Origin: Streptomyces sp. NBC_00250
GTDB lineage: Bacteria; Actinomycetota; Actinomycetes; Streptomycetales; Streptomycetaceae
NCBI RefSeq assembly: GCF_036192275.1
Contig: NZ_CP108088.1
Coordinates: forward strand, 7,069,501-7,133,500
Length of the DNA: 64,000 nt
Direction of reading: 5' to 3'
Shown here: piece by piece, positions 10,329 through 21,340 of the stretch
How positions within the stretch are numbered: the stretch's first letter is position 1
Layout: every line of letters begins with the position of its first letter
The notes under the pieces: generated by a model
The model's input: the letters and a program-made list of their open reading frames with translations, nothing else
Database searches by the model: none
What the model was told of the DNA's origin: nothing
Program-made: the position numbers and the translations under genes

Positions 10329-11585
10329 ATGTTCGGAATCGTCAGACCCTGCACCCATCGGCTCACCGACGGCCTCAAGACCGAGTGGATGGCCCACCTC
10401 TGCGGCCTCTGCCTGGCACTTCGCGCCGACCACGGCCAGTTCGCCCGGGTCGTCACCAACTACGACGGACTCATCGTCTCCGTGCTGACGGAGGCTCAGA
10501 CCGGTGCGGTGGAGAGCGGACGTCGCACCGCCGGACCCTGCCCGCTGCGCGGGATGCGGACCGCCCCCGTGGCGCGGGGCGAGGGCGCCCGGCTCGCCGC
10601 CACCGTCTCGCTCGTCCTCGCCTCGGCGAAGGTGCGCGACCACGTCGCCGACCGGGACGGCCTGTTGGCCCGCAGGCCCGTCGCCGCCGCGGCCCGCCGC
10701 GTCGCCCGCTCCTGGGACAAGGCGGGAGCCAGAACCGGCCGCGCCCTCGGCTTCGACACCGCCCTCCTCGTCGACGCCGTCGACCGCCAGACCGGGATCG
10801 AGGCCCTCGCCGGGCCCGGCACCTCCCTGCTCGCCGTCACCGAACCGACCGAGACCGCGACCGCGGCCGCCTTCGCGCACACCGCCGTCCTCGCCGGACG
10901 GCCCGGGAACGCGGAGCCGCTCGCCGAGGCGGGCCGGCTCTTCGGCCGGCTCGCCCACCTCCTGGACGCCGTCGAGGACCAGACCGCCGACGCCGAGAGC
11001 GGCGCCTGGAACCCGCTCACCGCGACCGGCACCTCCCGCGAGGAGGCCCGCCGGCTCGCCGACGACGCCCTGCACGGCATCCGCCTCGCCCTGAGGGACG
11101 CCGAGTTCGCCGACGGCAAGCTCGCCCACGTCCTGCTCGCCCACGAACTGCGCACCTCGGTGGACCGCGCCTTCGGCACGACGCGCTGCGCCCACGGCGC
11201 ACCGGGACCGGGCCAGGGTCCGGTGCCGGGCAACCCGTACGCGGGCGGGACCCCGGGCCCGTACGACCCCTACGGTGTCGGCGGGAACCCCTACGGCGGT
11301 GGAGGGAACCCGCACGGCGGTGGCGGCGGTTTCGGCGGACCGGGCGGTCCCGGCGGGCTGCCGCCGCAGTTCGGCGGCGGCGCCCCGCAGGCACCCAAGC
11401 CGCGCGGCTTCCTCGCGGGGTGCGCCATGTTCACCTGGCTCTTCTGCACCTGCCAGATCTGCTGCGCCAAGGAGTACGAGGGTCCCTGGTCCCGCAAGAA
11501 GCGCGAGGGCTGCTGCCAGAACTGCGACTGCGGCAATGGAGACTGCGGCGGCTGTGACTGCTGCTGCCCCTGCGACGGCTGCTGA
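10329..11585 (+). CDS. DUF5685-family protein with 16-cysteine tail
   Basis: 418 residues in three parts. Residues 1-290 are an alpha-helical domain beginning MFGIVRPCTHRL and HLCGLCLALR (Cys pairs that may bind metal). Then comes a Gly/Pro/Tyr-rich flexible linker of about 55 residues. The final 58 residues contain 16 cysteines, ending CDCCCPCDGC. I recall the N-terminal domain as DUF5685, a family of unknown function. The tail resembles a metal or Fe-S binding or membrane-associated Cys cluster; its AMFTWLFCTCQICC segment is hydrophobic. Divergent from the SepF-like gene. Function unknown. Confidence 0.85.
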   Translation: MFGIVRPCTHRLTDGLKTEWMAHLCGLCLALRADHGQFARVVTNYDGLIVSVLTEAQTGAVESGRRTAGPCPLRGMRTAPVARGEGARLAATVSLVLASAKVRDHVADRDGLLARRPVAAAARRVARSWDKAGARTGRALGFDTALLVDAVDRQTGIEALAGPGTSLLAVTEPTETATAAAFAHTAVLAGRPGNAEPLAEAGRLFGRLAHLLDAVEDQTADAESGAWNPLTATGTSREEARRLADDALHGIRLALRDAEFADGKLAHVLLAHELRTSVDRAFGTTRCAHGAPGPGQGPVPGNPYAGGTPGPYDPYGVGGNPYGGGGNPHGGGGGFGGPGGPGGLPPQFGGGAPQAPKPRGFLAGCAMFTWLFCTCQICCAKEYEGPWSRKKREGCCQNCDCGNGDCGGCDCCCPCDGC

Positions 11586-11630
11586 CGGACCGCCGGCCCA
11601 CGGGACCCCCCTCGCCGGAGCCCCGTCCCG

Positions 11631-12608
11631 CTACTTCTTCGGTGCCGGGAGCTCCGGCGGGGAGATCCGCGACGTGGCGATGCCCGATCCCGTCACCCCC
11701 CACTTCCTCAGGATCCGGTCGTACGTCCCGTCCGCCTTCAGGCCGTTCACCGCGGCCTGGAAGGCGGGCGCGAGCGGGGTGCCCTTCTTGAAGGCGAAGC
11801 CGACGTCGAGCCGCCGGTACTCGTTGAGGAACTTCACGTTCTTCTGCTGCGTCACCGCGTAGCGCACGCCGTTGATCGTGTTCATCACGACATCGCTGCG
11901 CCCCTGCTGGAGCGCCATCCAGACCGCCCCGGTCTCGCTGTAGACGTTCACCTCGTACGGCTGCTTGCCCGCCTCCTTGCACCGGCCCTTGTTCTGCTCC
12001 AGGGTCCGTTCGAAGGTGGTGCCGGCGTTCACCGCCACGTTCAGACCGCACAGCTGGGTGAGGTCGGTGACCGCCTTCAGCGGGCTGTCCGCGCGGCTCG
12101 CGAAGCCCTGGCCGTCGTTGATGTACGTCACGAAGTCGATGGCCTTGAGCCGCTCCTCGGTCACGCCGAAGTTCCCGGTGCCCACGTCGTACTTGCCGCT
12201 GCCGAGCGCCGGCAGGATCGCCTCGAAGCCGACCACCTCCCGCTTCAGCTCCAGGCCGAGGGCCTTCGCCACGGCCGCGGCGAAGTCGGCGTCGACCCCC
12301 ACGACCGTCTTGCCGTCGGGCAGATACGCCGAGCTGGGCGGGGTGGCGACGGCGGAGGCGATCGTGAAGCTGCCCCGCTGCCGGACCTCGGCGGGCAGCA
12401 GTTTCGCCGCGGCCTCGTTCTTCCTCACCGCCGACACCAGGTCCTCGGTCGGCAGCGCGCCCTTCGCGGCGGCCGGCGCCCCCGACGCTCCGGCCGGGGC
12501 CGTCGCGGGGTCCCCGCCCGCGCAGGCGGTGAGGGCGAGTGCGGCGCCCGTGATGAGGGCGAAGACGACGGTGGAGCGAGCGGTGCCGGGACGCGTGCGC
12601 GTGGTCAT
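11631..12608 (-). CDS. Amino-acid-type ABC transporter substrate-binding lipoprotein (SBP family 3)
   Basis: 325 residues. The signal peptide ends in lipobox LTAC (Cys29). The mature part follows the polar amino acid binding-protein fold: PPSSAYLPDGKTVVGVDADF, later YINDGQGFASRADSPLK and QGRSDVVMNTINGV. It is the second gene of a two-gene operon; its ATG overlaps the stop of the GNAT gene (ATGA). With the divergent operon, the locus encodes two such receptors for one permease/ATPase set, as in the B. subtilis ytm operon (two receptors, two permeases, one ATPase) for sulfur amino acids. The ligand is inferred, not seen. Confidence 0.9.
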   Translation of the reverse strand: MTTRTRPGTARSTVVFALITGAALALTACAGGDPATAPAGASGAPAAAKGALPTEDLVSAVRKNEAAAKLLPAEVRQRGSFTIASAVATPPSSAYLPDGKTVVGVDADFAAAVAKALGLELKREVVGFEAILPALGSGKYDVGTGNFGVTEERLKAIDFVTYINDGQGFASRADSPLKAVTDLTQLCGLNVAVNAGTTFERTLEQNKGRCKEAGKQPYEVNVYSETGAVWMALQQGRSDVVMNTINGVRYAVTQQKNVKFLNEYRRLDVGFAFKKGTPLAPAFQAAVNGLKADGTYDRILRKWGVTGSGIATSRISPPELPAPKK

Positions 12609-13084
12609 GGCTTCGGGTTCTCCAGGAGTTTCTCGAACGGCAGCGGGCCGATCGACTCGGGATCGGCGGACACGTCGAAGAGCGGGCGGTAGCCGCTCGC
12701 CAGATAGAGGCCCCTGGCCTCCGGCTGGCGCGGTCCGGTCGTGAGATAGAGGCGGGAGTAGCCGCGGGTGGCGGCCTCCCGTTCGAGCACGGTCAGGACC
12801 CGGCGGGCGAGTCCGCGCCTGCGGTGCGCCGAGTGGGTCCAGATGCGTTTCAGCTCGGCGGTGTCGTCGTCGTAGCGTCGGTACGCGCCGCCCGCCACGG
12901 GCCGGCCCTGTTCGAGGAGAAGCAGGAAGGCGCCGTGGGGAGGGGCGAACTCCTCCGCGGGGTAGCGGCTCAGATCGTGCGCGGAGCCGTACCGGGTCGT
13001 GTACTCGTGCGCCAGCTCGTCGAGGAGCGGGCGCGCCAAAGGGTCGGTGGTCGTGGTCCGGTGAACGGACAACGCGAAGGTCAT
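12605..13084 (-). CDS. GNAT-family N-acetyltransferase
   Basis: 159 residues, a single GNAT domain. The acetyl-CoA loop is HRRRGLARRVLTVLEREA (R/Q-x-x-G-x-G/A form), then GLYLASGYRPL. First structural gene of the minus-strand operon, coupled to the binding-protein gene by ATGA. In the B. subtilis ytm and yxe operons a GNAT enzyme N-acetylates S-substituted cysteines before a flavin monooxygenase cleaves them; the same role is my inference here. Its RBS (GAAGG, 13091-13095) lies in the 3' arm of a hairpin, downstream of a cysteine-ending leader peptide, so translation is probably regulated. Confidence 0.85.
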   Translation of the reverse strand: MTFALSVHRTTTTDPLARPLLDELAHEYTTRYGSAHDLSRYPAEEFAPPHGAFLLLLEQGRPVAGGAYRRYDDDTAELKRIWTHSAHRRRGLARRVLTVLEREAATRGYSRLYLTTGPRQPEARGLYLASGYRPLFDVSADPESIGPLPFEKLLENPKP

Positions 13085-13090
13085 GACGGT

Positions 13091-13128
13091 CCTTCAGGGC
13101 GAAGGAGGGCAGCCCTTCAGAACGAAGG
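13091..13128 (-). promoter_or_regulatory. RBS-sequestering hairpin with tandem alternative arm
   Basis: Read on the minus strand, CCTTC-GCCCT-GAAGG (13105-13091) places the GAAGG Shine-Dalgarno of the GNAT gene in a stem ending six bases before the ATG. A near-copy, CCTTC-GTTCT-GAAGG, lies just upstream at 13128-13114. The GAAGG of the upstream copy can pair instead with the CCTTC of the downstream copy (helped by GGG/CCC), which would free the RBS. This is the geometry of a sequestor/anti-sequestor switch. The pairings are seen in the sequence; the switching is inferred. Confidence 0.55.
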
Positions 13129-13224
13129 AGGGCGGCGCGGCAGAGCGAGGGGAGGGCAGAGCTCAGGCATCCACGAGGGGCCTGTGTGTGAAGGCGCCGC
13201 GGAAAGCAGCACGCGGGCGGAGCG

Positions 13225-13241
13225 GAGCCGGAGGCCGGCTC
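13225..13241 (-). promoter_or_regulatory. Hairpin just after the leader ORF (candidate attenuator)
   Basis: Perfect 7-bp stem with a 3-base loop (GAGCCGG-N3-CCGGCTC), beginning 18 bases after the stop codon of the leader ORF on the minus strand. Its position fits a stem whose folding depends on ribosome progress through the leader. There is no U-tract, so it could equally be a pause or structural element. Confidence 0.5.
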
Positions 13242-13259
13242 ATCGAGCAGAGGGTCGGC

Positions 13260-13328
13260 TCAACAGGAAGAGGACCACACGCGACCGAAGTCGATGTGGG
13301 AGCGCGTGACCAGCTGCTGCGAATGCAT
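13260..13328 (-). CDS. 22-aa leader peptide, HIDFGRV...C type (sulfur-responsive leader)
   Basis: ATG at 13328-13326 and TGA at 13262-13260 enclose 22 codons: MHSQQLVTRSHIDFGRV, then Trp, three Ser and a terminal Cys. The R-x-H-I/V-D-F/L-x-R-V-x-S-x-x-C pattern is the one I know from short putative leader peptides upstream of sulfur-assimilation and sulfur-import genes in Streptomyces. Cysteine as the last codon before the stop suits a ribosome that stalls when Cys-tRNA or sulfur is low. It lies about 175 bases before the GNAT-SBP operon, with a hairpin after its stop and a sequestered RBS further on. It is too short for ordinary gene callers. Family assignment is from memory; the ORF itself is read directly. 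Confidence 0.75.
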   Translation of the reverse strand: MHSQQLVTRSHIDFGRVWSSSC

Positions 13329-13399
13329 GGCCTCAGTGGAACAGGCATCCGTTCCCGCGTCAACCACGATGAGACGTACGGCTCACAGTGCGGACACCC

Positions 13400-13428
13400 T
13401 TGACAACAGGGCGTGTTGACCGCATAGC
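13400..13428 (+). promoter_or_regulatory. Candidate promoter of the permease operon
   Basis: TTGACA (13400-13405) is separated by 17 bases from CATAGC (13423-13428). The -35 is perfect, the -10 weak (3 of 6). It would give a leader of about 95 bases before the ATG at 13530. A second TTGACC lies inside the spacer. Confidence 0.45.
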
Positions 13429-13529
13429 CTCGAAGGGCGGATCGGGCTGAGGGGCCCGGTTCCGTGCTCAGTGCGTGTGAAGGCGCACCCCCGTGTTCGA
13501 TCCGCCTCTGGCATCCACGGAGTCTTCGC

Positions 13530-14378
13530 ATGTCCGCGACCCTGGTCAAAACCCCCTCCACGGCCCCGCCGGCCGAACCGCCGCCCCGCGTCGTCCCCAC
13601 CCGCCGCGCCGGGCAGTGGACCGCCGCGGGCCTCGTCCTCGTCCTGCTCGCCCTCGGCCTCGTCTCGGTCGTCCGCAACAAGGCCTTCCAGTGGGACGTG
13701 GTCGCCGAGTACTTCACCTCGGCCTCCGTCCTGCGCGGACTCGGCCTCACCCTGTGGCTGACCGCCCTCGTCATGGCCCTCGGCTTCGTCCTCGGGACCC
13801 TGCTCGCCGTACTCAGACTCTCCGCCAACCCCGTTCTCCGCGCGGTCAGTTGGGGTTACGTCTGGTTCTTCAGATCCACCCCGATCCTGGTCCAGCTGCT
13901 CTTCTGGTTCAACATCGGCGCGCTCTACCCCCAGATCCTCGGCGTGAACACGGTCAACCTCCTCGGCCCCGTCTCCGTCGCCGTCATCGGCCTCACCCTG
14001 CACGAGGCCGCCTACGCCGCCGAGGTCGTGCGCGGCGGCATCCTCTCCGTCGACCGCGGCCAGATCGAGGCCGCCCAGTCCCTCGGACTCGGCCGGTGGC
14101 GCCGGCTCTCCCGGATCGTGCTCCCGCAGGCCATGCGGGCCATCGTCCCGCCCGCCGGGAACATGCTGATCGGCACCCTCAAGGGCACCTCGATCGTCTC
14201 CGTGATCGCCGTCCAGGACCTGCTCTACTCCACCCAGCTCGTCTACCACCGCACGTACGAGATCATCCCGCTGCTCCTCGTCGCCACGCTCTGGTACGTC
14301 GCCGTCACCTCGGTCCTCAGCCTCGGGCAGTACTACGTCGAGCGGCACTACGCCCGCGGTACGGCCGGTGCGCGATGA
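13530..14378 (+). CDS. Amino acid ABC transporter permease (HisM/GlnP type), first copy
   Basis: 282 residues, about five membrane helices after a Pro-rich N-terminus. Signatures of polar amino acid permeases: WFFRSTPILVQLLFWFNIGA, and the EAA loop around GQIEAAQSLGLGRWRRLSR with IVLPQAMRAIVPP after it. Start ATG 13530 has CGGAG seven bases upstream; an in-frame GTG at 13464 has no better site. First gene of the plus-strand operon and the partner of the second permease, the two forming a heterodimeric channel. Coupled to the next gene by ATGA. Confidence 0.92.
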   Translation: MSATLVKTPSTAPPAEPPPRVVPTRRAGQWTAAGLVLVLLALGLVSVVRNKAFQWDVVAEYFTSASVLRGLGLTLWLTALVMALGFVLGTLLAVLRLSANPVLRAVSWGYVWFFRSTPILVQLLFWFNIGALYPQILGVNTVNLLGPVSVAVIGLTLHEAAYAAEVVRGGILSVDRGQIEAAQSLGLGRWRRLSRIVLPQAMRAIVPPAGNMLIGTLKGTSIVSVIAVQDLLYSTQLVYHRTYEIIPLLLVATLWYVAVTSVLSLGQYYVERHYARGTAGAR

Positions 14379-16180
14379 GCCTCCGTCCCTCGATCGTGAT
14401 CGTGGGCGCCGGGCCGCGGGGGACCGGCTTCCTCGAACGGCTCGCCGCCAACCTGCCCGAGGTGTACGGCGACGGCCCCCTCGACGTCCACCTCGTCGAC
14501 CCGCACCCGCCCGGCCCCGGCCGGATCTGGCGCACCGAACAGTCCCCGCTGCTCTGGATGAACTCCCGGGCCGAGGACGTCACCATGTTCACCGACGAGA
14601 CCGTGGACCTGGCGGGCCCCGTCCGGCCCGGACCCACCGTCGCCGAATGGGCCGGCATCGACGGCCGCACCTTCCCCACCCGCCCCCAGCAGGGCGCCTA
14701 TCTGCGCTGGGTGTACGAGCGGGCCCGCGCCGCGCTGCCCGCCTCCGTCACCGTCCACGAACACCGCACCACCGCCGTGCGGATCAGCGGCCCCCGCGAG
14801 GGGCGCCAGCGGGTCTGGCTGGAAGGCACCGCCGCACCCCTCCTCGCCGACCTCGTCGTCCTCACCGTGGGCCACCTCGACGCCGAACCCGACCCTGAGC
14901 AACAGGCCCTGGCAGGCTTCGCCGCCCGCCACGGCCTCGTCCACCTGCCGCCCGACTTCACCGCCGACAGCGACCTCGGCGCACTGCCCGCCGGTGAGCC
15001 CGTCATCGTCCGGGGCTTCGGCCTCGCCTTCGTCGACCTGATGGTGCTGCTCACCGAGGGCCGCGGCGGACGGTACGAGGGCGAGGGCGACACGCTCGTC
15101 TACCTGCCCTCGGGCAAGGAGCCGGTGCTGCACGTCGGATCGCGGCGGGGAGTCCCGTACCACTCCAAGCTCGGCTACGCCCTCGACGGCGAACGCCCCC
15201 CGCTGCCCCGCTTCTTCGGCCCGGAGCAGACCGACGCCCTGCTGCGGAGGACCGGACCGATCGACTTCCGACGCGATGTGTGGCCCCTCGTCGACAAGGA
15301 ACTCGGCTGGGCCCACTACCACCGGCTCTTCTCCGCCCATCCCGAGCGGACCACGCTCGCCTGGTCCGACTTCGAGCGGGCCTACGAGGAAGCGCCGCCG
15401 CGCGGGGCCGAACTCGCCGCCGTCGTCGCCGCGGCCGTCCCCGACCCCGCCGACCGGCTCGACCTGGACGCCCTCGACCACCCCCTGGACGGCATCCGCT
15501 TCACCTCGAAGGAGGCCCTCCAGCACGGTCTGCGCGACTACATCACCGACGACCTGACCCGCCGTCACGATCCCGCCCACAGCTCCGACGCCGCCGTCTT
15601 CGCCGGCCTGCTCTCCGTCTACGGACAGCTCCTGCGGCTCGGCGACCGCGTCGACCCCGGCGGCTGGTGGCACGGCTTCTTCAGCTATCTCGCCTCCGGG
15701 CCGCCCGGACCCCGGCTGCGCCAGCTCCTCGCCCTCTCCCGCGCCGGAGTCGTCCGCTTCCTCGGTCCCCAGGTCACCGTCGAGGCCGACGGGGAACGCG
15801 GAGTCTTCCGGGCCGCGTCCGCCGCCGTACCGGGGGAGTGGACCGAGGCCCGCGCCCTCGTCGAGGCCCGGCTCCCCGACCCCACCCTCGAACTCACCGG
15901 CAGCCCGCTCCTCCGTGCCCTGCACGAGGAGGGCGCGCGGGCCACCACCAGCGGTCTCCTCGTCGTCGACCCCGCCGACGGCCGGGTCCTGGAGCACGAC
16001 GGACGCCCGCACCCGCGCCGCTTCGCGCTCGGTCCGCACACCACCGCGCGGAGCGACAGCGCCTTCACCCGGCCCCGTACGGGCGGGGTCGTCTTCCGGC
16101 AGAACGACGTCACCGCACGGGCCGCGCTGACGTTCCTGCGCGACCGGGAGTGTCGGCATCCGGCGCCGCTGAGCGCCTGA
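14375..16180 (+). CDS. FAD/NAD(P)-binding protein (NAD_binding_9 type)
   Basis: 601 residues. The N-terminus is a dinucleotide-binding fold (IVIVGAGPRGTGFLERLAA), followed by LWMNSRAEDVTMF and a second Rossmann-like segment (PVIVRGFGLAFVDLMVLLTE). This resembles the FAD/NAD(P)-binding family found next to transporter and regulator genes in actinobacteria, distantly related to N-hydroxylating and Baeyer-Villiger flavoenzymes. It is embedded between two permease genes and coupled to the first by ATGA, so it should be co-produced with the importer and may process the imported substrate. The reaction is unknown; cytosolic, with no membrane segment. Confidence 0.85.
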   Translation: MSLRPSIVIVGAGPRGTGFLERLAANLPEVYGDGPLDVHLVDPHPPGPGRIWRTEQSPLLWMNSRAEDVTMFTDETVDLAGPVRPGPTVAEWAGIDGRTFPTRPQQGAYLRWVYERARAALPASVTVHEHRTTAVRISGPREGRQRVWLEGTAAPLLADLVVLTVGHLDAEPDPEQQALAGFAARHGLVHLPPDFTADSDLGALPAGEPVIVRGFGLAFVDLMVLLTEGRGGRYEGEGDTLVYLPSGKEPVLHVGSRRGVPYHSKLGYALDGERPPLPRFFGPEQTDALLRRTGPIDFRRDVWPLVDKELGWAHYHRLFSAHPERTTLAWSDFERAYEEAPPRGAELAAVVAAAVPDPADRLDLDALDHPLDGIRFTSKEALQHGLRDYITDDLTRRHDPAHSSDAAVFAGLLSVYGQLLRLGDRVDPGGWWHGFFSYLASGPPGPRLRQLLALSRAGVVRFLGPQVTVEADGERGVFRAASAAVPGEWTEARALVEARLPDPTLELTGSPLLRALHEEGARATTSGLLVVDPADGRVLEHDGRPHPRRFALGPHTTARSDSAFTRPRTGGVVFRQNDVTARAALTFLRDRECRHPAPLSA

Positions 16181-16225
16181 TCCCCGCCCCGCTCCCGCTG
16201 CCCGACCCCTTTCCGAGGAACCGCC

Positions 16226-17113
16226 ATGTCTCTCACCAGCGATCCGCCCGTCACCAGAGCCGCCGTCGTGAAGGAACCGACAGCCGGCCCCGAGCTCGTG
16301 GTCGTCCCCGTGCGTCACCCCTGGCGCTGGGTGGCCGTCGCCGTCACCGCCGTACTGCTCATCCAGTTCGTCCACGGGCTCGTCACCAACCCCGGCTGGG
16401 AGTGGGACGTCTTCGCCGCGTTCTTCACCACCGAAACGGTCCTCCGGGCCGTCTGGGTCACCCTCCAGCTCACCTTCCACGGCACCGCCCTCGGCTTCGC
16501 GATCGGCATCGTGCTCGCCTTCATGCGCCTGTCGGCCAGCCCGTTCCTGCGGTCCGTCGCCTTCGGCTACATCTGGGCCTTCCGCTCGATCCCGCTCATC
16601 GTCCAGCTGCTCTTCTGGTTCAACCTCGCCTACCTCTACAAGGAGCTGAGCATCGGCATCCCCTTCGGGCCGAGCTTCCTCTCCTTCGACACGATGGGCC
16701 TGGTCGGCGAGATGAGCGCCGCCGTCCTCGGACTCGCCCTGCACCAGGCGGCCTACGCGGCGGAGATCGTCCGCGGCGGTGTACTCGCCGTGGACGAGGG
16801 CCAGTTGCAGGCCGCGGCCTCCCTCGGCATCCCGCGGCTCCGCCAGGTGCGGCGCATCGTCCTGCCGCAGGCCATGCGCTCGATCCTGCCCAACGCCGCC
16901 AACGAGATCATCTCGCTCTTCAAGGGCACCTCGATCGTCTCCGTCATGGCGATCGGCGAACTCTTCTACCAGGTCCAGGTCGTCTACGGCCGCAACGGAC
17001 GGGTCGTCCCGCTCCTGATGGTCGCCACCGCCTGGTACGTCCTGCTCACCACCGCGCTCTCCGTCGTCCAGCACTACGTCGAACGCCACTACGCGAAGGG
17101 GAGCACCCGATGA
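16226..17113 (+). CDS. Amino acid ABC transporter permease, second copy
   Basis: 295 residues, closely similar to the first permease (shared IVLPQAMRSILP, QLLFWFNLAYLY and LKGTSIVS/FKGTSIVS blocks), so the pair arose by duplication. The EAA loop is GQLQAAASLGIPRLRQVRR. Start ATG 16226 has GAGGAA six bases upstream. It overlaps the ATPase start by ATGA. With permease 1 it should form the membrane channel; the large FAD protein gene separates the two permease genes, an unusual order. Confidence 0.92.
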   Translation: MSLTSDPPVTRAAVVKEPTAGPELVVVPVRHPWRWVAVAVTAVLLIQFVHGLVTNPGWEWDVFAAFFTTETVLRAVWVTLQLTFHGTALGFAIGIVLAFMRLSASPFLRSVAFGYIWAFRSIPLIVQLLFWFNLAYLYKELSIGIPFGPSFLSFDTMGLVGEMSAAVLGLALHQAAYAAEIVRGGVLAVDEGQLQAAASLGIPRLRQVRRIVLPQAMRSILPNAANEIISLFKGTSIVSVMAIGELFYQVQVVYGRNGRVVPLLMVATAWYVLLTTALSVVQHYVERHYAKGSTR

Positions 17114-17916
17114 GCTCCGTCACCGCCGACCCGGCCGTCCAATCCGCGGCCACCGCCACCGCCAAGGTCGAGATCCGCTCGGTCCACAAGACCTTCGGCC
17201 CCCTCCACGTACTGCGCGGCATCGACCTCGACGTCCGCGCCGGCGAGGTCACCGTCGTCCTCGGCCCCTCGGGCTCCGGGAAGTCCACCCTCCTGCGGAC
17301 CATCAACCACCTGGAGAAGGTCGACAGCGGCACCGTCAGCGTCGACGGCACCCTCGTCGGCTACCGCCGCTCCGGCAACAAGCTCTACGAGCTGCGCGAG
17401 CGGGACATCCTCAAGCAGCGCACCCGGATCGGCTTCGTCTTCCAGAACTTCCACCTCTTCCCCCACCTCACCGTCCTGGAGAACATCGTCGAGGCCCCCG
17501 TCTCGGCCCTGAAGCGCCCCCGCAAGGAGGCCGAGGCCGCGGCCCGGGCCCTGCTCGAACGCGTCGGACTCGCCGACAAGGCGGAGGCGTACCCCAAGCA
17601 GCTCTCCGGCGGACAGCAGCAGCGGGTCGCCATCGCCCGCGCGCTCGCCCTCGAACCCGGCCTGCTCCTCTTCGACGAGCCGACGTCCGCGCTCGACCCC
17701 GAACTGGTCGGCGAGGTCCTCGACGTCATCAAGGACCTGGCCGCCTCCGGCACCACCATGATCGTCGTCACCCATGAGATCGGCTTCGCCCGCGAGGTCG
17801 CCGACACCGTGGTCTTCATGGACGAGGGCCGGATCGTCGAGCAGGGACCGCCGGCCGAGGTGCTCGACAGCCCGCGCCACGAACGCACCCGCGCCTTCCT
17901 CTCCAAGGTCCTCTGA
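17110..17916 (+). CDS. Amino acid ABC transporter ATP-binding protein (GlnQ type)
   Basis: 268 residues with all nucleotide-binding motifs: Walker A GPSGSGKST, Q-loop FVFQNFHLFPHLT, signature LSGGQQQRVAIA, Walker B LLLFDEPTSALD and the switch His in MIVVTHEIGFA. The RSGNKLYELRERD insertion is typical of the polar amino acid/cystine importer subfamily. The only ATPase of the locus, so it presumably serves both permeases and both receptors. Confidence 0.95.
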   Translation: MSSVTADPAVQSAATATAKVEIRSVHKTFGPLHVLRGIDLDVRAGEVTVVLGPSGSGKSTLLRTINHLEKVDSGTVSVDGTLVGYRRSGNKLYELRERDILKQRTRIGFVFQNFHLFPHLTVLENIVEAPVSALKRPRKEAEAAARALLERVGLADKAEAYPKQLSGGQQQRVAIARALALEPGLLLFDEPTSALDPELVGEVLDVIKDLAASGTTMIVVTHEIGFAREVADTVVFMDEGRIVEQGPPAEVLDSPRHERTRAFLSKVL

Positions 17917-17947
17917 CCACCCCCTTCTCCCTTTCAGGAGCACTGCC

Positions 17948-18925
17948 ATGAAGACCCGTCGTCCCGTCCTCGCCGCCCTCGCCTCGCTCACCGCCCTCGG
18001 GGTCCTCACCGCCTGCGGCTCGGGTGACGCCACCACCGAAACGATCAAGCCCGAGGGGAAGAAGGCGGCCGGTGGCATCAACCTGAGCCCCGAGCAGAAC
18101 CGTGTCCACACCCCCAAGGTCGACGCCCTCGCCGCCCGGCTGCCCGAGGCCGTCCGCAAGAGAGGCACCCTGATCCTCGGCGTCTCCGCGACCGGCAATC
18201 CGCCGCTCGCCTTCCACGCCACCGACGACAAGACGCTGATCGGCGTCGAGGTCGACCTCGCCACCCTGGTCGCCGACGCCCTCGGTCTGAAGCCCGAGTT
18301 CGACCCGGTCTCCTGGGAGAACCTCTTCGTCGGCCTCGACAGCGGCAAGTACGACGCCGTCTTCAACAACGTCACCGTCACCGAGGAGCGCAAGGACAAG
18401 TACGACTTCGCCACCTACCGCCTGGACGACCTGGCCTTCGAGGCGAAGAAGGGCTCCGGCTGGACGGTGAAGGGCCCCGAGGACGTGGCGGGGAAGGTGA
18501 TCGCCGTCGGCTCCGGCACCAACCAGGAGAAGATCCTCGTCGACTGGTCCGCGCAGAACGAGAAGGCCGGCCGCGAGCCGGTCGACATCAAGTACTACCA
18601 GAACACCTCGGACTACTACCTGGCGCTCCAGTCCGGCCGGATCGACGGCTACCTCGGCCCCAATCCCGTCGCCGCCTACCACGTGCTCTCCGCCGGACAG
18701 ACCGAGATCGTGGGCACGTTCTCCGGTGCGGGCGCCGGGCTCCAGGGCAAGATCGCGGCCACCACGAAGAAGGGCAGCGGACTCGTCGCCGCCTACGCCG
18801 CCGCGATCGACCACCTCGTCGAGAACGGCACCTACGCCCAGGTCCTCAAGCGGTGGGGCCTCGACGGCGAGGCCGTGACGAAGTCGGAGATCAACCCGCC
18901 CGGGCTGCCCCGTACCGAGAACTGA
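17948..18925 (+). CDS. Substrate-binding lipoprotein (SBP family 3) of the organosulfur-type importer
   Basis: 325 residues. Signal peptide with lipobox LTAC (Cys23). The binding fold shows PPLAFHATDDKTLIGVEVDL, then LFVGLDSGKYDAVFNNVTVT and DYYLALQSGRIDGYLGPNP. CAGGAG lies just upstream of the ATG. It is a paralogue of the receptor on the minus strand: both have the KYDVGTGN/KYDAVFNN-type motif and a C-terminal INPPGLP/ISPPELP tail. Two receptors for one channel suggest a range of related ligands. Confidence 0.93.
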   Translation: MKTRRPVLAALASLTALGVLTACGSGDATTETIKPEGKKAAGGINLSPEQNRVHTPKVDALAARLPEAVRKRGTLILGVSATGNPPLAFHATDDKTLIGVEVDLATLVADALGLKPEFDPVSWENLFVGLDSGKYDAVFNNVTVTEERKDKYDFATYRLDDLAFEAKKGSGWTVKGPEDVAGKVIAVGSGTNQEKILVDWSAQNEKAGREPVDIKYYQNTSDYYLALQSGRIDGYLGPNPVAAYHVLSAGQTEIVGTFSGAGAGLQGKIAATTKKGSGLVAAYAAAIDHLVENGTYAQVLKRWGLDGEAVTKSEINPPGLPRTEN

Positions 18926-18971
18926 CCCGTCCGCCGCTCCGTTCGCTTCACGTCGCTTCGAGAGAGACCGC

Positions 18972-20036
18972 ATGACCAGCACCCGAACGCTCCACCTGGC
19001 AGCCGAACTCGCCCCGGGATCCGGTGACTTCCCGCCCACGTCCGCGTCCTCCGCCGCCGTCCGCACGGCCGCGCACTCCGTCGCCGACACCGCCGCCCGT
19101 ACCGTCGCGCTCGCCCGGCTCGCCGACGCCGCCGGGCTCGACTTCCTCACCCACGACGACTCCTTCGCCCGGCCCGGCCTCGACGCGCTCGCCGTCCTCG
19201 CCCGGGTCGCCCCCGAGACCCGTTCCGTCGGGCTCGTGCCGACCGTGACCACCACCCACACCGAGCCCTTCCACGTCCAGGCCGCCGTCGCCACCCTCGA
19301 CTGGGTGAGCCGGGGCCGGGCGGGCTGGCGGATCGCGGTCTCCCCGAACGGGGCCGAGGCCCGGCTCTTCGGCCGCCGCCCGGTCCCGCCCACCGCCGAG
19401 CTCTGGCAGGAGGCGGGCGAGGTCGCCGAGGTCTCCCGCAAGCTGTGGGACAGCTGGGAGGACGACGCCGAGATACGCGATGTGGCGACCGGGCGGTTCA
19501 TCGACCGCCGCAAGCTGCACCACGTGAACTTCCAGGGCTCGACCTTCTCGGTCAAGGGCCCCTCGATCGTCCCCCGGCCCCCGCAGGGCAATCCGGTGAC
19601 CGTCGTCGACGCCACCCGCCCCGACGCCCGGGACACCGCCGCCCACCACGCCGACGTGGCCCTGATCCGGGCCTCCTCCGCCGAGGAGGCCGCGGCCCTG
19701 CGCGCCGAACTGCGCCAGGGGGCCCGCGCCCACGGCCGGGACCCCGGTCAGCTGCGCGTCCTGCTCTCGGCGACCGTCGACCTCGACGCGTACGAGGGCG
19801 GGCCCGGGGCGCTCGCCGCACTGATCGCGGGCTGGCACGGCGGCGGGGCGGTCGACGGCTTCCACCTCGTGCCGGCCGTGCCCGAACGGGACCTGGAGCG
19901 GTTCACCGCCGAGACCGTGACCCGGCTGCGGGACCGCGGGCTCTTCCGCGAGACCTACGAGGGTGCCACCCTCCGCGACCACCTGGGGCTCACCCGCCCG
20001 GTCAGCCAGTACGCGACGACGGGAGCGCACGCGTGA
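18972..20036 (+). CDS. Luciferase-like (LLM) flavin monooxygenase-type protein, short form
   Basis: 354 residues with a TIM-barrel LLM fold: LARLADAAGLDFLTHDD, AVLARVAPETRSVGLVPTVT and LDWVSRGRAGWRIAVSPN, followed by LWDSWEDDAE and GFHLVPAVPERDLERF. It is about 80 residues shorter than the NtaA/SnaA/DszA enzymes and lacks their long insertion. It overlaps the next LLM gene by GTGA, so the two proteins are probably made 1:1 and may form a heteromer. Expected to use FMNH2 supplied by a reductase encoded elsewhere; no reductase gene is in the operon. Confidence 0.85.
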   Translation: MTSTRTLHLAAELAPGSGDFPPTSASSAAVRTAAHSVADTAARTVALARLADAAGLDFLTHDDSFARPGLDALAVLARVAPETRSVGLVPTVTTTHTEPFHVQAAVATLDWVSRGRAGWRIAVSPNGAEARLFGRRPVPPTAELWQEAGEVAEVSRKLWDSWEDDAEIRDVATGRFIDRRKLHHVNFQGSTFSVKGPSIVPRPPQGNPVTVVDATRPDARDTAAHHADVALIRASSAEEAAALRAELRQGARAHGRDPGQLRVLLSATVDLDAYEGGPGALAALIAGWHGGGAVDGFHLVPAVPERDLERFTAETVTRLRDRGLFRETYEGATLRDHLGLTRPVSQYATTGAHA

Positions 20037-21340
20037 GCACCCACAAGGGACGGAAGCAGATCCACCTCGCGGCGCACTTCCCCGGCGTCAACTCCACCAC
20101 CGTCTGGGCCGATCCGCGCTCCCGCTCGCAGATCGACTTCTCCTCCTTCGAGCACCTCGCCAGGACCGCGGAGCGCGGCCTGTTCGACTTCTTCTTCCTG
20201 GCCGAAGGGCTGCGGCTGCGCGAGCACAACGGGCGCATCCACGACCTCGACGTCGTCGGCCGGCCCGAGTCGATCACCGTCCTCAACGCGCTCGCCGCCG
20301 TCACCGACCGGCTCGGCCTGGCCGGTACGGTCAACGCCACCTTCAACGAGCCGTACGAACTGGCCCGGCGGCTCGCCTCGCTCGACCACCTCAGCGCGGG
20401 CCGGGCCGCCTGGAACGTCGTCACCTCCTCGGACGCCTTCACCGGCGAGAACTTCCGGCGCGGCGGCTATCTGGACCGGGCCGACCGGTACACCCGGGCC
20501 GCCGAGTTCCTCGCCACCGCCCGGGAGCTGTGGGACTCCTGGACCCCGGGCGGGGAGCGGCGCCCCTTCGCCCACGACGGGCCGCAGTTCGGGATCGAGG
20601 GGGAGTTCACCGTCCCGCGCTCCCCGCAGGGGCATCCTGTCGTCATCCAGGCCGGGGACTCCGCGGAGGGCCGGGAGTTCGCCGCCTCGGCCGCCGACGT
20701 GATCTTCAGTCGGCACTCCACCCCGGAGGCCGCCCGGGAGTTCTACGCCGATGCCAAGGGACGGCTCGCCCGGTACGGCCGCGCGCCCGAGGACCTGAAG
20801 ATCATGCCGGCGGTCACGTACGCGCTCGGCGACACCGACGCCGAGGCGCAGGAACTGGCCGCCGAGATCCGTCTCCAGCAGGTCTCCCCGCAGAACGCGA
20901 TCCTCGCCCTGGAGCAGATCTGGGGCCGCGACCTGTCCGGCTACGACCCGGACGGACCGCTCCCGGACGTCGACCCCGATCCCGACTCGACGCTCGTCCA
21001 GGGCCGGGTGCGGGTCGCCGACCCGGTGGCGGTGGCGAGGAAGTGGCGGGCGCTCTCCGAGGCCAAGGGCCTGTCGATCCGTCAGACGGTGATCGAGACC
21101 TCCGGCCGGCAGTCCTTCGTCGGCAGCCCGGAGACGGTGGCCGCGGCCCTGGAGGAGTTCGTCGTCACGGACGCCGCCGACGGCTTCATCCTGGTCCCGC
21201 ACCTCACCCCCGGCGGCCTCGACGACTTCGTCGACCGGGTGGTCCCGCTGCTCCAGGAGCGCGGAGTCTTCCGTACGGAGTACTCCGGCACGACGCTGCG
21301 GTCGCACCTCGGGCTTCCCGAGCCCGTATGGAAGGGTTGA
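20033..21340 (+). CDS. NtaA/SnaA/DszA-family FMN-dependent monooxygenase
   Basis: 435 residues, full family length. Diagnostic blocks: HLAAHFPGVNSTTVWADPRS at the N-terminus, FDFFFLAEGLRLREH, SLDHLSAGRAAWNVVTSSDA, then GHPVVIQAGDSAEGREFAA and DGFILVPHLTPGGLDDFVD. These enzymes use reduced FMN and O2 to cleave C-S or C-N bonds (dibenzothiophene sulfone, nitrilotriacetate, N-acetyl-S-alkylcysteines in the B. subtilis YtnJ/YxeK group). In an operon with a cystine-type importer, C-S cleavage is the favoured reaction. The GTG start overlaps the upstream stop. Confidence 0.92.
   Translation: MSTHKGRKQIHLAAHFPGVNSTTVWADPRSRSQIDFSSFEHLARTAERGLFDFFFLAEGLRLREHNGRIHDLDVVGRPESITVLNALAAVTDRLGLAGTVNATFNEPYELARRLASLDHLSAGRAAWNVVTSSDAFTGENFRRGGYLDRADRYTRAAEFLATARELWDSWTPGGERRPFAHDGPQFGIEGEFTVPRSPQGHPVVIQAGDSAEGREFAASAADVIFSRHSTPEAAREFYADAKGRLARYGRAPEDLKIMPAVTYALGDTDAEAQELAAEIRLQQVSPQNAILALEQIWGRDLSGYDPDGPLPDVDPDPDSTLVQGRVRVADPVAVARKWRALSEAKGLSIRQTVIETSGRQSFVGSPETVAAALEEFVVTDAADGFILVPHLTPGGLDDFVDRVVPLLQERGVFRTEYSGTTLRSHLGLPEPVWKG

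Follow-up and report, generated by a model that had tools for sequence, protein, structure and literature searches.

The window, a 64-kb piece of a 9.27 Mb Streptomyces genome, carries on its minus strand, from 13363 to 13082 and in this order, a promoter-like TTGACG-17-TCCACT and a 22-codon ORF, after which come a hairpin of 7 bp, a stretch rich in C, CCTTC/GAAGG in two tandem copies and finally a GNAT gene. The ORF (13260..13328) encodes a leader peptide, MHSQQLVTRSHIDFGRVWSSSC*, which ends in Cys and has its sensing codon, TGT, at 13265-13263. Perfectly paired and 18 nt past the leader stop lies the hairpin GAGCCGG-CCT-CCGGCTC (13225..13241). The two copies of CCTTC-N5-GAAGG follow at 13114..13128 and 13091..13105, and the second GAAGG (13095-13091) is the Shine-Dalgarno sequence, 6 nt before the GNAT ATG at 13084. 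The acetyltransferase gene (12605..13084, minus strand; Pfam PF00583, E 8.3e-17) is the first gene past the leader, and its stop is overlapped by a gene for a family-3 solute-binding lipoprotein (11631..12608, minus strand; Pfam PF00497, E 6.1e-26). The original prediction had named the Cys-ending ORF, the 7-bp hairpin after its stop and the two hairpins before GNAT, the downstream one holding the Shine-Dalgarno sequence; all are present, every one on the minus strand.

Judged by sequence comparison, the leader ORF is conserved far beyond chance. Its absence from relatives had been named in advance as a count against the prediction; a HID[F].R leader was found within 1.5 kb upstream in 26 of 30 loci with a GNAT orthologue, the 30 loci being the best among 199 genomes. 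Searched with HID[FL]GRVW as a DNA pattern, genome contigs gave at least 119 matching stretches, and 73 of the 80 matches listed were from Streptomyces, the others coming from Pseudonocardia, Streptacidiphilus, Solihabitans, Kitasatospora, Micromonospora, Saccharothrix and Plantactinospora. The GNAT-orthologue loci and the pattern matches listed (at least 119) gave 143 leaders for comparison. L034, whose frame continues for 26 codons, was excluded, and L022 (HIDFCRVC), which has no pattern match, lies outside the set. As some leaders come from the same or very close genomes, 120 representatives were used for most statistics. Start codons were picked by rule, and a few are possibly wrong.

The first gene past the leader was classified by similarity to references for 105 of the 143 leaders, and 38 were left unclassified. 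Thirty-seven of these genes encode LLM monooxygenases nearest to alkanesulfonate monooxygenase (LLM1), 30 family-3 binding proteins, 24 GNAT proteins, nine other LLM proteins of two types (5 and 4), three DUF4395 proteins and two family-5 binding proteins; the names GNAT, SBP, LLM1, DUF4395 and SBP5 were verified on one member each. The top NCBIfam matches of LLM1 were alkanesulfonate monooxygenase models, under the cut-off. By eye, the GNAT protein opens with what is left of the LLM1 start (MSVEFLGTAAT...) in L013, L015 and L016 and of the LLM3 start in L011 and L014; in L011 and L013-L016 the monooxygenase appears to have been lost, with leader and RBS retained.

The source genome itself carries five further Cys leaders (L152-L156, at 1501-1536 in each), all five with TGT. 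One of these sister leaders precedes a ThiS-family gene and a cysteine synthase gene (TIGR01136 above cut-off), and others precede genes for an SsuC-like permease, an LLM monooxygenase, a flavin reductase and a 2OG-Fe(II) oxygenase. Two of the five pass NCBIfam NF042934 (38.5 and 30.7 bits; cut-off 27). The window peptide shares the H-x-D-x-x-R...C pattern of NF042934 (cis_reg_atten, putative leader peptide) and of NF042936 (Ms4527A family), but it reaches only 22.2 bits against NF042936 (E 7.9e-5; cut-off 45) and has no match to NF042934 at E up to 1. The ORF is short, has a Cys near its stop and is conserved before sulfur or cysteine genes, the features of the Cys-leader class. On these grounds we regard the family as a new sub-family of the known actinobacterial Cys leader attenuators, lying under the NCBIfam cut-offs.

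The codon at the sensing position is TGT in 142 of 142 leaders, the remaining one of the 143 being interrupted by a contig end. TGT accounts for 0 of 124 Cys codons in the leaders' first genes and for 11 of 109 in 36 window ORFs. The leader Gly codon is GGT in 140 of 143 (7.9% in the first genes) and the Val codon GTG in all 143 (40% in the first genes). As the leaders share ancestry, no probability is attached to this bias. A looser pattern that allows TGY gave 87 matches in 51 of 148 class-level genomes, 85 with TGT and 2 with TGC, and its reversed control gave 4; it is unable to match the window leader, because it demands C or G at the third base of Gly. In the source genome its matches were the five sister leaders. 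Rare-codon use of this sort fits a sensor of ribosome speed and resembles that of classical attenuators.

The predicted promoter of the leader transcript (13335..13363, minus strand) consists of TTGACG (13363-13358), 17 nt and TCCACT (13340-13335). Of 131 leaders, 94 have the first base of TTGAC 35 or 36 nt ahead of the start codon, and 104 have TTGAC at 25-45 nt from it, against a background of 0.0058 per 25 nt. This spacing would imply a leaderless transcript, and transcription probably starts at or adjacent to the A of the leader ATG. A sigma-70 consensus scan of 13000-13560 returned 0 sites.

According to the folding models, the ORF of the sub-family encodes a UUCG-capped hairpin besides the peptide. 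In the window it reads CCACAUCGAC-UUCG-GUCG(C)GUGUGG (13275..13299, minus strand). For the hairpin CCACAUCGAC-UUCG-GUCGNGUGUGG the mean z was -2.03 at a window offset of -48 among the 120 representatives, and -2.68 at -42 in the Cys-last leaders, in which the Cys codon touches the stop. The hairpin is the consensus fold of both leader classes, and its stability was matched by 2-78 of 500 synonymous recodings at 23 loci. The window's own ORF stretch, in a longer cut, was unexceptional against dinucleotide shuffles (z -0.29). A covariation test is impossible for this hairpin because its arms hardly vary.

Past the stop the RNA is rich in C and poor in G (C 48%, G 26%, T 17%, A 8%; 96 loci). Its C minus G value has a median in the top 1.6% of windows from the same locus and falls in the top 5% in 82% of cases (n=111), the window leader being in the top 2.5%. 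A post-stop hairpin of -10 kcal/mol or lower was found in 31 of 62 Cys-last leaders, where 8.2 were expected, and the 12 nt past it have a T fraction of 0.30. The excess is less clear in leaders with codons after the Cys (20 of 58, where 13.8 would be expected). Between +80 and +140 a control stretch likewise exceeded expectation in count (9 against 2.6 and 16 against 9.7), but its ranks were unremarkable, 0.55 and 0.43, where the post-stop stretch of Cys-last leaders had 0.22. The 7-bp hairpin of the window alone has -11.5 kcal/mol, and the z of its post-stop stretch was insignificant (-1.36, dinucleotide shuffles). Hairpins were counted per sequence, since the variable ones escaped RNAalifold when it was run on MAFFT alignments of the post-stop region; alignment A1, which slips in the stem, was excluded from the pair counts.

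C-rich, G-poor RNA past a leader ORF is the arrangement of tna-like Rho action, and the composition seen here is no more than compatible with Rho. Taken together with the post-stop hairpins of the Cys-last leaders, it would favour premature transcription termination as the output, shortly beyond the Cys-abutting stop; for the cys leaders of mycobacteria, termination at such a place has been considered possible (PMC1262725). The lack of Shine-Dalgarno sequestration above controls across the family speaks for this output too, whereas the terminator scan of 13000-13560, with 0 sites, and the loss of the window's 7-bp hairpin from 2 of 8 clade loci speak against it. In nine loci only 37-79 nt separate leader and gene, with scant room for a terminator, which suggests that the sensor may be coupled to different outputs; in three of the nine, a mask simulating a stalled ribosome raised Shine-Dalgarno accessibility by more than 0.1.

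We propose that the conserved Cys-ending leader probably lets Streptomyces sense how much cysteine is at hand and tune a sulfur-uptake operon accordingly. The sensor part alone, a leader that reads cysteine supply, we hold to be very likely; a cysteine-responsive, ribosome-mediated attenuator with premature transcription termination as its output we give an even chance. Transcription would start at the leader AUG, judging from the promoter, and a ribosome would translate the HIDFGRVW leader. Short of Cys-tRNA, it would pause at the sole Cys codon, a wobble-read UGU by the stop, and cover the stop and the first post-stop bases, so that termination would be hindered and transcription would proceed. 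With ample cysteine it would depart at the stop, and the ORF hairpin and the post-stop hairpin could form; the C-rich, G-poor RNA downstream would then be open to termination, with Rho or the hairpin as agent, and RNA polymerase would mostly stop before GNAT. UGU is avoided in these GC-rich genomes yet near-absolute in the leaders, and one synonymous change should blunt the response. The scheme would extend cysteine-sensing leader peptides to a portable element of Streptomyces and relatives that precedes alkanesulfonate, cyst(e)ine-type and acetyltransferase genes, and one short DNA pattern could predict a whole sulfur regulon.

In E. coli, tnaC is subject to Rho-dependent attenuation, the signal being free tryptophan. 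The Streptomyces leaders would resemble it in that the ribosome is held at the very end of the leader peptide beside a possible Rho-loading region; unlike at tnaC, the signal would be a lack of Cys-tRNA, and the role of Rho is hypothetical. Attenuation at tnaC is mentioned in PMC1262725. Leaderless leader peptides before amino-acid genes are also described in Streptomyces itself, in S. lividans, where the table in PMC8079986 gives leu, trp, ala, ilv, met and thr leaders, with no cysteine-dependent one noted in it. Among the papers that our literature search listed, none dealt with a cysteine leader peptide of Streptomyces; subscription literature lay mostly outside the search, and absence from print is not claimed. 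Rfam gave three matches in 11000-20500 at E up to 1, all below gathering scores and none overlapping 13082-13532.

Work by Canestrari from 2020 is said to concern mycobacterial polycysteine leaderless sORFs that act as attenuators. Mycobacterial Cys leaderless sORF attenuators are cited in PMC13236596 and PMC9094748, and cys leader peptides appear already in Seliverstov 2005 (PMC1262725). Like these, the Streptomyces leaders are short ORFs, here predicted to be leaderless, with Cys codons at the end, sulfur or cysteine genes behind them and several copies per genome. Unlike them, they mostly have a single Cys, a hairpin in the ORF, a different gene set and RBS masking that is not above controls. 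Translational attenuation of the mycobacterial kind, in which a stalled ribosome would open a mask on the GNAT Shine-Dalgarno sequence by pairings other than those first predicted, is possible at the window but rather unlikely. It is the mode reported for M. smegmatis cys genes (PMC13236596, citing Canestrari 2020), and several observations point the same way: TCCTTC-N5-GAAGG occurs at the downstream copy in 8 of 8 clade loci, the Shine-Dalgarno sequence of GNAT-first loci is less unpaired (0.23) than in shuffled (0.28) or swapped (0.30) controls (n=19), the leaders at 37-79 nt from their gene include the three that responded to the stall mask, and the RBS and first codons of a lost LLM gene have stayed with the leader (L013, L015, L016; likewise L011 and L014 for another LLM).

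The tests of masking across the family argue against it. Among 88 loci the unpaired fraction of the Shine-Dalgarno sequence was 0.30 for the loci's own upstream sequence, 0.31 for shuffled and 0.32 for swapped ones, so that sequestration as a family property shows no excess over these controls; the window itself gave 0.20 against 0.16-0.19 shuffled. In this test the last 14 nt were fixed; fixing 22 nt hides the window's own stem. Ten of 105 rows were left out (gene less than 70 nt from the stop, weak Shine-Dalgarno or short sequence), and then seven near-duplicates. A simulated stall mask at the UGU left the accessibility in the window at 0.20 (0.20 to 0.20), and in 95 loci the mean change was +0.016 against +0.010 for masks elsewhere, both figures coming from an equilibrium model only; the gain exceeded 0.1 in 11% of loci against 5% for control masks. 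Duplexes between leader end and Shine-Dalgarno sequence had no general excess over swapped controls, with ranks of 0.46 in GNAT loci, 0.62 in LLM1 loci and a somewhat better 0.30 in binding-protein loci. The ranks of the eight clade loci against upstream shuffles (0.75 for the window, then 0.67, 0.05, 0.05, 0.09, 0.11, 0.21 and 0.07) hint weakly at a tendency to Shine-Dalgarno pairing in six of the eight, absent in the window and its species mate.

Termination might instead follow the Trp scheme, the ORF hairpin being the pause, the post-stop hairpin an intrinsic terminator and a 2:3 pairing the antiterminator. Both hairpins exist, and many Cys-last binding-protein loci have GCGCCC...GGGCGC followed by CTTTTCGCGTTCTCC. 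We nevertheless consider this scheme improbable: no long 2:3 complementarity is seen by eye (GGUC:GACC, 4 bp), the positions of stall and stop are one codon apart because the Cys codon touches the stop, and the terminator scan of the window region (13000-13560) gave 0 sites.

On the plus strand, the 5' RNA of a divergent permease operon is conserved and structured (13435..13532; RNA model R1, 77 bits in the own genome). It has a hairpin with a near-invariant GCUGAGGGGC apex, and its GUGUGAAGGC pairs with GCCUUCGCAU over the start codon. The RNA is present in 67 of the 119 pattern loci examined (at least 119 being listed) and in 28 of 61 Streptomyces genomes, once in each; phylum-wide it was found in 3 of 119 genomes, two of them Streptomyces and one weak. 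A HIDFGRVW leader stands divergently beside 19 of the 20 element loci examined, and on the divergent strand itself no leader peptide was seen by eye near 13420-13530. The pairs of the RNA are formed in 89.4% of cells against 34-47% when slid. Since most of the pairs are invariant, covariation does not exceed that of shuffled controls, of which 69 in 500 reach the observed value; the RNA has no Rfam match. The divergent operon includes an NtaA/DmoA-like LLM monooxygenase gene (18972-20036, plus strand) and a large ORF (14365-16180, plus strand) that by eye resembles a FAD/NAD(P)-binding protein.

The leader transcript and the divergent RNA are complementary in one stretch. A conserved block, GCGCCTTCACAC, lies on the minus strand at 13186..13197, and its 12 nt recur identically upstream on the same strand (13486-13475), so that one copy stands on each side of the leader promoter; the upstream copy is antisense to the start-codon helix of the divergent RNA. 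Of 62 Cys-last leaders, 43 have CCTTCACA no more than 250 nt from the stop, as do 2 of 58 others; the background is 0.015 per 250 nt. GCCTTCAC, the complement of the divergent GUGUGAAGGC, is found in 42 of 58 leaders with the element and in 1 of 42 without it. The two could form a module. The divergent 5' RNA would shut its own start codon through GUGUGAAGGC:GCCUUCGCAU, and the Cys leader transcript, which carries GCCUUCACAC, a perfect complement of the divergent GUGUGAAGGC, would pair with it, either as the RNA left by attenuation or while nascent, and open or otherwise reset the second operon.

This module is a long shot. The co-occurrence of element and block and the divergent adjacency in 19 of 20 loci argue for it, as do a duplex of -26.6 kcal/mol against -14.3 for the cis pairing and an agreement between the two copies that none of 2000 permuted pairings equalled. 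Against this, 16 of 58 and 7 of 19 elements have no block beside them, the flanks agree no better than in swapped pairs, and the association is not significant when only Cys-last leaders are counted (39 of 49 against 0 of 1). Shared descent can explain both association and agreement, and a protein operator explains same-strand copies equally well. If the module were real, a single ribosome that senses cysteine would set both divergent operons by way of its own attenuation RNA; the conserved divergent RNA is a separate, testable regulator.

A reading in which the peptide is incidental and a DNA-binding protein regulates at the GCCTTCACAC blocks flanking the promoter is very improbable: the block does stand upstream, on the same strand, in 49 of 59 Cys-last loci, and 43 of 62 have it downstream, but such a protein would leave the conservation of TGT and of the ORF unexplained, as well as the leaders that have no block (it is present in only 2 of 58 others), and the upstream block doubles as the 5' strand of the helix over the start codon in the divergent RNA.

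The switch originally predicted joins the tandem hairpins C1-G1 and C2-G2 to the leader: stalling would let the upstream GAAGG (G1) pair with the downstream CCTTC (C2) and free the RBS. The four segments exist and are improbable by composition, CCTTC-N(3-8)-GAAGG occurring at least once in the last 80 nt in a fraction of 1e-4 of 20,000 mononucleotide shuffles and twice in none; the two copies seem to stem from a tandem duplication at the site. Their folding is unexceptional (z -0.91 and +0.20 for two cuts, dinucleotide shuffles). The Shine-Dalgarno GAAGG is 97-100% paired in the fold ensemble of the window, 58% with the near and 38% with the far CCTTC, and in the nested form (-15.0 kcal/mol) it remains paired because the G1-C2 fold nests inside C1-G2, the far CCTTC taking over. 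Folding does not bear out the proposed release, the Shine-Dalgarno sequence being paired in both alternatives. With the nearest segment 131 nt past the leader stop codon, the stall mask without effect and the exact upstream copy in only 3 of 8 clade loci, we consider this switch highly improbable. What stands of the attenuator originally proposed is the Cys sensor before sulfur-type genes; the two-hairpin sequestor is unsupported, and so is its supposed novelty, RBS sequestration under Cys leader peptides having been described in Mycobacterium, as cited in PMC13236596.

Loss of the stems in relatives had likewise been named in advance as a count against the prediction, and among the clade relatives it is seen in part. 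All eight loci retain the downstream copy, which with its flanking T/A makes a 6-bp stem of -6.4 kcal/mol. The upstream copy is exact in L003, L004 and L128 (3 of 8, window included), has an 8-nt loop in L006, reads CCCTC in L005 and L065, is missing in L083 and is another hairpin sequence in L150. Five of the eight loci have the 7-bp hairpin in perfect form; it has one mismatch in L065 and is absent from L083 and L150. In L008 a different complementary pair, TCTCTT/AAGAGA, replaces CCTTC/GAAGG (rank 0.03). As the downstream stem is conserved but the stall and sequestration tests are null, there is no demonstrated switch, and a stalled ribosome cannot reach the hairpin directly; a plain, non-switching Shine-Dalgarno hairpin may be real in the clade. 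A further clade hairpin, CAGGC...GCCTG (13164..13184, minus strand), has arms that by eye are complementary in every one of the eight clade loci; in L006 both arms have changed together, to CGGGC...GCCCG.
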